Shown in pieces: positions 36,615 through 41,500 of a stretch of 64,000 nt of DNA. The notes under the pieces were generated by a model. It saw only the letters and a list, made by a program, of their open reading frames with translations. It made no database searches and was not told the DNA's origin. The position numbers and the translations under genes are program-made. Position 1 is the first letter of the stretch, and the number at the start of each line of letters is the position of its first letter. Source of the stretch: Candidatus Ecksteinia adelgidicola (lineage in GTDB: Bacteria; Pseudomonadota; Gammaproteobacteria; Enterobacterales; Enterobacteriaceae); assembly GCA_020541345.1 (NCBI GenBank), contig CP045239.1, positions 248,001 to 312,000 of the forward strand, written 5' to 3'.

Positions 36615-36672
36615 TTATTTTTTAAACTTTATTAACCTATTCAATCTATTTTGAAATTTAGGAAAAATTTTT

Positions 36673-37038: not shown

Positions 37039-37357
37039 TTTTATTTTTTGCAATATAGTTTAGTCTAATAAAATAGGAGTTCATTATTTTTCAACTTATT
37101 TATTAAAATATTAGTTAAAGCTGTTGCTATTTTCTTAAAAAACTATGCTTAATTTAATTTTATTGAGACCTACATGTTGCTCTTTGTATCATAGTTTAGT
37201 TTTAAAATATAGTATAATATTATTAATGTAAATACGATTAAAAAAAGTTTTTATAGGAAATACTCACTTTTTTTAGGCGTTATAATAATGTTGTGTTAAC
37301 CGTTTTTTATTTTGTTAAAGTAACATGGTTTGACTGTTCAGCGAGCTAAGGAACCCT
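37039..37357 (+). promoter_or_regulatory. rplL-rpoB intergenic region with conserved rpoB leader
   Basis: 319 bases without an ORF. In E. coli this gap holds an attenuator and an RNase III site, neither of which I can define here. The last ~27 bases before the start, including GTTCAGCGAGCTAAGGAACC, nearly match the E. coli rpoB leader as I recall it and supply the Shine-Dalgarno AAGGA (37349-37352 core). Confidence 0.5.
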
Positions 37358-40300
37358 ATGGTTTATTCCTATACCGAAAAAAAACGTATCCGAAAGAATT
37401 TTGGTAAGCGTCCAAAAGTACTGGACATCCCTTATCTCCTTTCTATTCAACTTGACTCTTTTCAAAAGTTTATTAGACAAGATTTAAAGAAAAAGCATGG
37501 ATTAGAAGCTGCTTTTTGTTCTGTTTTTCCTATTCAAAGTTATAATAAAAACGCAGAACTACAATATGTTAGTTACCGTCTTGACGAACCTGTATTCGAT
37601 GTTAAAGAATGTCAGGTCAGAGGGATGACATTTTCTGCACCGCTTCGTGTAAAATTACGTTTAATTATATATGATCGTGACAATTTAGATCATGGAGTTA
37701 AAGATATTAAAGAACAAGAAGTTTACATGGGTGAAATTCCTCTCATGACTGAAAATGGCACATTTATAATTAATGGTATTGAGCGAGTTGTTGTTTCCCA
37801 GTTGCATCGTAGTCCTGGTGTATTTTTTGACAGTGATAAAGGAAAAACTCATTCATCAGGAAAAGTACTCTATAACGCACGTATTATTCCTTATCGAGGT
37901 TCATGGTTGGATTTTGAATTTGATCCAAAAGACAATATATTTGTGCGTATTGATCGTCGTCGTAAATTACCAGTGACTATAATTTTACGTGCATTAAATT
38001 ATACAACTGAAAAAATTCTTAATCTTTTTTTTGAAACAATCATTTTTGAATTTTACAACCATAAACTGAAAATGATACTTGTTCCAGAACGTCTTCGTGG
38101 TGAGACTGTTTTTTTTAATATTGAAGTTAATGGAAAAGTATATGTAGAAAAAGGTCATCGTATTAGCACTAGGCATATTAATCAGCTTAATAAAGATAAC
38201 ATTCAAAATATTGAAGTACCAATCGAATATATTATAGGTAAAGTCATTGCAAAAGATTATGTAGATATTAAGACTGGTGAGTTAATTTGCACATCGAATT
38301 CAGAAATTTCATTAGATTTAATAAATAAATTAAGAGAATTCAATCAAAAAACTATTGAAATATTATTTACTAATGATTTAGATCATGGTTCGTATATTTC
38401 TGAAACTATGCGTATTGATCCAACTAATGATCGTTTAAGCGCGTTAATAGAAATTTATCGTATGATGCGTCCTGGCGAACCCCCTATCCGTGAAGCTGCT
38501 GAAACTTTATTTAAAAATTTGTTCTTTTCTGAAGAACGGTATGATTTGTCTATAGTTGGACGTATGAAATTTAATCGTTCTTTGTTTACTGAGACAAATA
38601 AAGGTTCAAGTATTTTAAGTAAAAGCGATATTGTTGAAGTTATAAAAAAACTTATTAACATAAGAAACGGAAAAGGTGAGATAGATGATATTGACCACCT
38701 GGGTAACCGGCGAATACGTTCTGTTGGTGAAATGGCTGAAAATCAATTTCGTGTTGGATTAATTCGTGTGGAACGCGCAGTTAAAGAACGATTGTCGTTA
38801 GGGGATCTAGATACTTTAATGCCGCAAGATATGATTAATGCCAAACTAATTTCAGCTGCTATCAAAGAATTTTTTGGATCTAGTCAATTATCTCAATTTA
38901 TGGATCAAAACAATCCATTATCTGAGATTACGCATAAACGTCGTATTTCTGCATTAGGACCAGGTGGATTAACTCGAGAAAGAGTTGGATTTGAAGTTCG
39001 AGATGTTCATCCTACTCATTATGGTCGAATCTGTCCAATTGAAACACCGGAAGGTCCTAACATTGGTTTAATTAATTCTCTAGCTGTATACGCACAAACT
39101 AATAAATATGGTTTTTTAGAAACTCCATATCGTCTGGTTTACAATGGTATTGTTACTAACAAAATTCATTATTTATCTGCTATTGAAGAAGGTAATTTTG
39201 TTATTGCTCAGGCTAACTCAAATTTAGATAATAATTCTCAATTTATAGAAGATCTCATAACTTGTCGTAGTAAAGGTGAATCAAGTTTGTTTAATTCGAA
39301 ACAAGTTGATTATATGGATGTTTCTACTCAGCAAATCGTTTCTGTTGGTGCTTCTCTTATTCCATTTTTAGAACATGATGACGCTAACCGAGCATTAATG
39401 GGAGCAAATATGCAACGTCAAGCAGTTCCAACTATACGTGCAGATAAGCCACTAGTTGGTACTGGAATGGAACGTGCAGTAGCAGTAGATTCTGGTGTAA
39501 CTATCGTAGCTAAACGTGGTGGTATAATTCAATATGTAGATGCTTCTCGCATTGTTGTAAAAATCAATGAACGTGAAATGTATCAAGGTGAAGCAGGTAT
39601 TGATATTTATCACTTAACTAAATACACTCGTTCCAATCAAAATACTTGCATTAATCAAATACCTTGTGTCAATCTTGATGAACTAATCGAACGAGGAGAT
39701 GTATTAGCTGATGGTCCATCTACAGACTTAGGTGAATTAGCATTGGGTCAAAATATGCGTGTAGCTTTCATGCCTTGGAATGGTTATAATTTTGAAGATT
39801 CTATCTTAATTTCTGAACGTGTAGTACAGGAAGATCGTTTTACTACCATTCATATTCAAGAATTATCATGTGTATCCCGTGATACAAAGTTAGGTCCTGA
39901 AGAAATTACAGCTGATATTCCTAATGTAAGTGAAACTTCACTTTTAAAATTAGATGAGTCAGGAATAATATATATTGGCGCAGAGGTAACTAGCGGAGAC
40001 ATTTTAGTTGGTAAGGTAACACCTAAAGGTGAAACTCAATTAACACCTGAAGAAAAATTATTACGCGCAATATTTGGAGAGAAAGCGTCTGATGTGAAAG
40101 ATTCATCTTTACGTACACCAAATAATGTGTCTGGTACAATTATTGATGTACAGATTTTTACTCGTGATGGTGTAAAAAAAGATAAGCGTGCATTAGATAT
40201 TGAAGAAATGCAACTTAAACAAGCAAAAAAAGATCTTACTGAAGAGTTAAAAATTTTAGAATCTGATTTATTTAATCGAATTTATTCTATATTAATTACA

Positions 40301-41389
40301 GGTGGCATTCAAGTTGATTACTTAAATAAACTAACAAGAAATCAATGGTTAGAACTTACTTTATGTGAAGAAAAAAAACAAAATCAACTACAAAATTTAA
40401 AAAAACAATATAACGAATTAAAATCTCTTTTTGAAAAAAAATTAAAAAATAAACATCATAAAATTATTCAAGGAGACGATTTAGCGCCAGGTATTTTAAA
40501 AATCATTAAGGTTTATTTAGCAGTAAAACGCCAAATTCAAACAGGTGATAAAATGGCAGGTCGTCATGGTAATAAAGGAGTAATTTCTAAAATAAATCCT
40601 ATTGAAGATATGCCTTATGATGAACACGGAACGCCAGTAGACATTGTGCTCAATCCACTTGGTGTGCCATCTCGGATGAACATAGGTCAAATATTAGAAA
40701 CTCACTTAGGAATGGCTGCAAAAGGAATTGGTGAAAAAATTAATCAAATGCTTAAGCAACAGCAAAAAGTAACGAAATTACGCACGTTTATTCAAAAAGC
40801 TTATGATTTAGGTAATAATATTTATCAAAAAGTAGATTTATCTACTTTTAATGATGATGAAGTATTACGATTAGCAAAAAATTTAAAAAATGGCATGCCA
40901 ATTTCAACACCAGTTTTTGATGGTGCAAAAGAAGTAGAAATTAAACAACTATTAAAAATAGGAAATATCCCTACTTCTGGTCAAATTACTTTATTTGATG
41001 GTCGTACTGGTGAAAAATTTGAGCGACAAGTTACTGTTGGTTATATGTATATGCTAAAATTAAATCATTTAGTTGATGATAAAATGCATGCTCGTTCAAC
41101 TGGTTCTTATAGCTTAGTAACACAACAACCATTAGGTGGTAAAGCACAATTTGGAGGACAGCGTTTTGGTGAAATGGAAGTATGGGCCTTAGAAGCTTAT
41201 GGGGCAGCGTATACCTTACAAGAAATGCTTACTGTTAAATCAGATGATGTAAATGGACGAACAAAAATGTATAAAAACATTGTAACTGGTGATCATCGTA
41301 TGGAGCCAGGTATGCCAGAATCTTTTAACGTATTATTAAAAGAAATACGTTCACTCGGTATTAATATCGAACTAGAAGAAAATGAATAA
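37358..41389 (+). CDS. rpoB: DNA-directed RNA polymerase subunit beta
   Basis: Beta subunit of RNA polymerase, half of the catalytic cleft. The protein is 1343 aa (E. coli 1342). Landmarks in order are the N-terminal [20 protein letters not shown]; the rifampicin-binding region with [20 protein letters not shown] and RISALGPGG, in which the Asp, His and Ser positions usually altered by resistance are wild type; [20 protein letters not shown]; the flap and insertion regions; [15 protein letters not shown] near 1065-1080 (active-site lysines); and the C-terminal clamp sequence [20 protein letters not shown]. Intact frame over 4 kb. Confidence 0.99.
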
Positions 41390-41500
41390 TTTTTCAATTA
41401 AATTTTAATCTTAGCATTCTAAGAATTTTTAGTTAATTTGTATGAGTCACTACTAAAATTGTGAACGTCTAATAGATTCAACTCCGACAGGAGCCAATCC

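Follow-up and report, generated by a model that had tools for sequence, protein, structure and literature searches.

In the symbiont Candidatus Ecksteinia adelgidicola (genome size 980 kb) the genes rplL and rpoB are separated by an intergenic gap of 319 bases, the same length as in Escherichia coli K-12. An earlier note on this DNA had claimed that the rpoB leader is kept while the remainder of the gap has drifted, and that this conservation exceeds the needs of a Shine-Dalgarno (SD) sequence. The question is what such a leader would be kept for. In E. coli, rpoBC is regulated autogenously according to PMC10931766, and PMC4670729 describes regulation at both transcription and translation, by mechanisms "still incompletely understood". 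PMC2777011 places an RNase III site within the E. coli gap. We analyzed a stretch of 64,000 nucleotides (the window, whose positions are used throughout), in which the last base of rplL is 37038 and the first of rpoB 37358. The parts of the locus are the following:

37039..37110, + strand: site of the Rfam P26 match of free-living relatives, undetectable in the window (Rfam scan)
37288..37327, + strand: site of the upstream hairpin H1 (CUGUCC/GGACAG in E. coli); in the window an AT-rich inverted repeat with the stability expected by chance (shuffle folding)
37328..37357, + strand: conserved leader block, rpoB -30 to -1, 25/30 identical to E. coli (identity count, shuffle z)
37338..37349, + strand: site of hairpin H2 adjoining the SD, TCAG-CGAG-CTAA in the window and UCAG-CGAG-CUGA in E. 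coli, with three of four pairs (sequence, pair counts, retention in other symbionts)
37347..37352, + strand: SD TAAGGA, with a 16S-tail pairing energy like that of E. coli (pairing energy)
37352..37363, + strand: possible start-codon hairpin H3, AACC-CTAT-GGTT (weak covariation support)
37358..41389, + strand: rpoB coding sequence, 1343 amino acids, ATG start (open reading frame, DNA match to E. coli rpoB)
37358..37396, + strand: rpoB codons 1-13, with synonymous sites constrained in free-living relatives, not clearly in symbionts (codon identity)

Identity of the leader and its spread across genomes

Over the 30 bases before rpoB the window and E. coli share 25, including a 23-base run, TCAGCGAGCTRAGGAACCCTATG, with a single difference. 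The alignment score of this block stood far above shuffled sequences (z 9.6, none of 500 as good), against z 1.3 for positions -70 to -31 and z -0.3 for the 249 bases from -319 to -71 (500 shuffles each), so that the contrast drawn in the earlier note was borne out. The outcome that would speak against it, a lack of identity above the ribosome-binding site, was looked for in the same alignment and did not occur. The pattern TCAGCNAGCTRAGGAACCCTATGG is found once in the window, with none expected from shuffles. We also ranked the leaders of the 29 window genes with an E. coli counterpart by ungapped identity over the 30 bases upstream of each start. There rpoB and nuoE were joint top with 25/30; nuoE, like rplA (23) and nusG (22), has high leader identity, but its upstream bases are mostly coding sequence of the preceding gene. 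The rpoC and rplL leaders, located in true gaps, reach 22/30 each (for rplL, positions 36643-36672), and the next leaders outside coding sequence, those of cyoA and nuoB, only 15/30. The rpoB leader is thus the best kept, within an operon whose rplL and rpoC leaders are also well kept, which argues against a feature unique to rpoB.

No terminator was found in the gap scan of the window, and promoter-like sites numbered 4 against 2.7 expected, so a promoter or terminator inside the gap was rejected. Elsewhere in its own genome the gap has two short matches only, of 33 and 47 bases. At the rpoB block no Rfam family scored above its cut-off in the window or in the free-living loci scanned; a match to SCARNA24 (30.1 bits, cut-off 70) was taken as chance.

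The simplest account would be that the block is just an SD plus slow drift, or else an unannotated in-frame N-terminal extension of the protein. Its downstream half is indeed SD and AUG, and the E. coli block reads open in frame. However, identity extends far above the SD, beyond its core and spacing. The one change that sets the window SD apart (TAAGGA) leaves its predicted pairing with the 16S tail at -6.0 kcal/mol, against -6.1 in E. coli; the need for an SD alone thus does not account for the additional conserved bases, in agreement with the second claim of the note. The extension (SELRNP-M) was rejected as a general feature: among 66 distinct free-living leaders, 21 carry an in-frame stop codon within the nine codons preceding the ATG, and the spacing between GAGGA and ATG takes up every one of the three frames (103, 16 and 13 loci, from the 132 with GAGGA out of 141). 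Together these make drift around an SD, or an extension, hardly credible.

Of 99 genomes drawn from the order, 34 contain the exact 17-base core, CAGCNARCTGAGGAACC, in one copy each; of 114 drawn at class level, none does. Both draws count the genome of the window, a one-base variant that does not match. All of the 30 core places (out of 34) that were recovered as loci lie directly before an M-x-Y-S start, that of rpoB. The spread is wider than the exact pattern shows: Vibrio, Aeromonas and Pseudoalteromonas loci match the core exactly, Alteromonas is one base off and Shewanella more. The element is widespread in the bacterial order. We chose 55 reduced genomes of up to 1.6 Mb, from 51 genera: at least 13 of the 17 core bases are kept in all 15 of at least 0.9 Mb and in 10 of the 40 below that size; shuffled leaders reach 13/17 once in 11,000. 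The window keeps 16, against 11 in G001, the one further member of its genus among the genomes searched.

For these comparisons 231 loci were collected; without one whose start lies outside its stretch (L231) and three duplicates (L106, L113, L134) they amount to 227, with 157 distinct leaders. Reduced genomes were searched for the rpoB locus in sets of 55 and then 33; three of the latter (G282, G299, G363) yielded no locus and were left out. No rpoB match was found in G038, G337 and G339. Some loci depart from the common leader. The block is largely lost and replaced by a different leader in three of the seven named Pasteurellaceae loci (L047, L049, L055) and in L256. In seven others (L006, L009, L024, L026, L031, L095, L104; three Citrobacter, one Enterobacter, one Buttiauxella and two more) one extra base lies between block and ATG (CCCTAATGG), altering the SD spacing.

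In free-living relatives the constraint extends into the first rpoB codons. Pairwise identity at synonymous codons in 57 Enterobacterales loci was 0.99 for codons 2-8 and 0.96 for codons 2-13, falling to 0.77 (codons 14-40) and 0.57 (codons 41-80); adding 28 more distant loci gave 0.83, 0.80 and, for codons 41-80, 0.50. In a subset of 28 loci codons 2-8 of rpoB scored 1.00, against 0.83-0.87 for rplL, rplJ and rplA, and rpoB codons 27-40 also scored 0.91. In 59 symbionts the excess is small (0.63 for codons 2-13 vs 0.58 for codons 41-80, with few codons).

A probable hairpin adjoining the Shine-Dalgarno sequence

In the predicted fold of the E. coli leader (-66 to +45, and equally in a 72-nt stretch) UCAG-CGAG-CUGA forms a hairpin immediately before the GG of the SD. 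This hairpin, H2, has a 4-bp stem and a 4-base loop, and its 3' strand provides the first two SD bases. The window copy, UCAG-CGAG-CUAA, is not intact by the measure proposed in this analysis: the base change in its SD produces one C.A mismatch, and H2 is absent from the predicted folds.

H2 was evaluated on an alignment of 148 distinct leaders. Nine more (L144, L149, L152, L161, L162, L164, L166, L167, L168), from very reduced genomes with misplaced or unrecognisable starts, entered the core-retention count but neither this alignment nor the register test below. The covariation that the earlier note had proposed to look for appeared in part. Paired cells (75.8%, 0/500 shuffles as high), the covariation score (0.222, 1/500) and cells with two-sided changes (24, 6/500) all exceeded shuffles, while the number of pairs with two-sided changes did not (3, against 3.5 in shuffles). 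Registers slid along the same alignment were paired far less (12-51%); the one at -2 has more two-sided cells than H2 (32 vs 24), though just 17.7% of its cells pair. These shuffle and register controls ignore relatedness. All four pairs are formed in 62 of the 148 rows.

A register test on symbionts was more telling. After setting aside 6 of 77 symbionts for want of an SD anchor and 2 duplicates, we took the 37 distinct leaders that had drifted (at most 13/17 core bases) and counted complete hairpins in every combination of loop and shift. The H2 register (loop of 4, ending exactly at the SD GG) was complete in 11, against 0-5 (mean 1.4) in 35 other registers. These 11 come from 9 genera, 3 of them from a single one. 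In seven, from seven genera (L102, L142, L148, L235, L243, L245, L252), all four pairs persist although at least one has changed on both sides; in the other four, pairing is kept via one-sided, wobble changes. H2 is also complete in 19 of 32 less drifted symbiont leaders and in 30 of 71 distinct free-living and other leaders. Among 75 E. coli genes, 20 lacked an SD anchor, and in the remaining 55 no register was enriched (0-4 each), so hairpins adjoining the SD are not general. Sequence and RNA structure kept beyond the SD across relatives, the mark set in this analysis, is what was found, and from these patterns we read H2 as a selected RNA hairpin.

We consider it probable, if far from certain, that the block is the kept core of an mRNA module for rpoB translation initiation, widespread in the order, that helps to set the synthesis of beta. 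In such a module the SD would be pressed against the 4-bp, loop-4 stem of H2, and after it would come the first codons, which free-living relatives hold constant even at synonymous sites. H2 would set the access of the 30S subunit to SD and AUG and in this way help to determine, at the level of translation, how fast beta is made, independently of the transcription attenuator expected upstream. In the window, where the module is conserved in sequence but its hairpin is weakened, its main role is therefore probably that of a strong ribosome-binding site.

The near-invariance over the AUG in free-living relatives could also point to an element acting on DNA or elongation, such as a site at the start codon where the polymerase pauses in transcription and is thereby coupled to the ribosome. 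The rpoB leader has a G at -10 and a pyrimidine followed by G at the AUG, which we take to fit the pause consensus. However, these bases double as SD and AUG, and a pause predicts no retention of a 4-bp hairpin through two-sided changes, which makes this account quite improbable.

A related hairpin is found before rplL. A 4-bp stem with a loop of 3 adjoins the rplL SD in 24 of 67 distinct free-living leaders and 8 of 51 symbiont leaders, other registers giving 0-4; rplL starts were located in 179 of the 227 loci, 29 of them without an SD anchor. The predicted rplL hairpin is similar to H2 but weaker, so the design is not unique to rpoB, and this favours a translational design shared by both genes over an operator specific for beta. 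At the rpoC start (41482-41493) the sequence CTCC-GACA-GGAG lies before the GTG, a possible hairpin including the SD that is present in E. coli too (CTCCGACGGGAG).

Upstream structures and a possible control of beta synthesis

Farther upstream, the hairpin H1 of free-living relatives gave median fold z values of -1.2 in Enterobacterales (control stretch -0.7), -1.5 in Vibrio/Aeromonas (control +0.2) and -2.4 in Alteromonadales (control -0.6); in two further small sets the control stretch was as low or almost so. On 52 Enterobacterales leaders 90.0% of cells were paired, against 89.2 in shuffles (38/500 as high), with 4 two-sided cells (22/500). We regard the support for H1 in Enterobacterales as modest by these measures. 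In the window it was undetectable (z +0.4 against shuffles).

The start codon itself lies in a further predicted E. coli hairpin, H3 (GAACC-CUAU-GGUUU around the AUG, in the -66 to +45 fold and in the 72-nt stretch). Its two-sided changes amount to 9 cells (7/500 shuffles as high); four slid registers exceed it in such cells (10-22) but pair less (at most 68.2% vs 88.7%), so that support for H3 appears weak. A longer E. coli stretch favours a competing pairing around H2, GGGU with ACCC (P1), which was left unsupported by the alignment: 48.6% of cells pair, and a slid register is equal or better (51.1%). The start region as a whole folds no better than shuffles over 72 nt in either the window (z +1.3) or E. 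coli (z +1.1), and over 120 nt the values were +0.7 and -0.1; minimum energies are -5.7 kcal/mol in the window and -9.5 in E. coli. As the E. coli region behaves like the window against shuffles, fold energy says little.

At the other end of the gap, a match to the Rfam family P26 (RF00630) was found just after rplL in all 24 free-living loci scanned and in 11 of 20 reduced genomes. In the window nothing matched P26 at the gathering score or at E values up to 10. By its position we take the P26 match to be the rplL-rpoB attenuator. The family is titled "Pseudomonas sRNA P26", and in L001 (2931-2992) and 34 other loci it sits where the rpoBC attenuator is expected; this position just after rplL means that the family may be a cis attenuator instead of a free sRNA. 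Eight of the nine reduced genomes without P26 keep at least 14 of the 17 core bases, and the window, with 16, does likewise. The window seems to have lost the transcriptional half of this control region and to have kept the translational half in sequence, which suggests that a symbiont is able to lose the one and yet keep the other.

Such retention would also fit a leader that is simply a constitutive ribosome-binding-site architecture, in which no regulator takes part and the hairpin only prevents the SD from pairing elsewhere or docks on the 30S platform. The unchanged strength of the SD and the related hairpin at rplL agree with this, which we regard as quite possible, at less than even chances; alone, it leaves unexplained why bases outside the SD are identical across families and why free-living relatives have the separate hairpin H1. 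The block could also be the operator of the known autogenous control of beta, in which RNA polymerase or an assembly intermediate would bind the leader hairpins and the start region and halt rpoB translation. The block sits where an operator could be, at the translation start of rpoB in the rplL-rpoB gap, the free-living constraint passes through the AUG into the codons, free-living relatives have H1 in addition, and the effector would be present even in symbionts. Autogenous control of rpoBC, in transcription and translation, is described for E. coli in PMC4670729 and PMC10931766. The binding is putative, however, H1 is undetectable and H2 weakened in the window, and a similar hairpin stands before rplL, a gene controlled by the L10-L12 complex (PMC10931766). 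We hold an operator to be rather doubtful. The most specific form of it, that the rpoB leader of the order would be an RNA operator made of H1, H2 and the start-codon region and read by RNA polymerase, of which symbionts keep the core, partly via two-sided changes, even without a detectable attenuator, appears unlikely. These judgements overlap with that on the translation-initiation module, of which both the constitutive architecture and the operator are finer readings. For the window, an undetectable H1, a weakened H2 and the lack of better folding agree with a conserved ribosome-binding site no less well than with a functional operator.

Translational control of beta by the rpoB leader is plausible on this comparative evidence, and the 4-bp hairpin adjoining the rpoB SD, kept in drifted symbionts, is a precise target for mutation and probing in E. 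coli. The closest known region is that of E. coli itself, with the same place, gap length and block; it differs from the window in its P26 match, undetectable here, and in its unweakened hairpin. In the literature searched, mostly outside subscription papers and available in part, no description of the rpoB block or hairpin as a structured conserved element was found. P26 is a hairpin in the same gap, but lies more than 200 bases upstream of the block.

The rpoB block belongs among the conserved mRNA leaders at ribosome-binding sites. Leaders of ribosomal-protein operons, such as that of S15, carry RNA hairpins at the ribosome-binding site, and they resemble the rpoB block in that a short hairpin lies at the SD, or covers it, in a gene whose product belongs to the machinery of translation or transcription; for the rpoB block an RNA-binding product would be hypothetical. 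The spacers of another symbiont, Buchnera, also contain blocks conserved around the SD, as PMC3164680 describes; the words rpoB and rplL are absent from its main text. The consensus reported there is AGGAG, whereas the rpoB block spans at least 23 bases and includes a hairpin.
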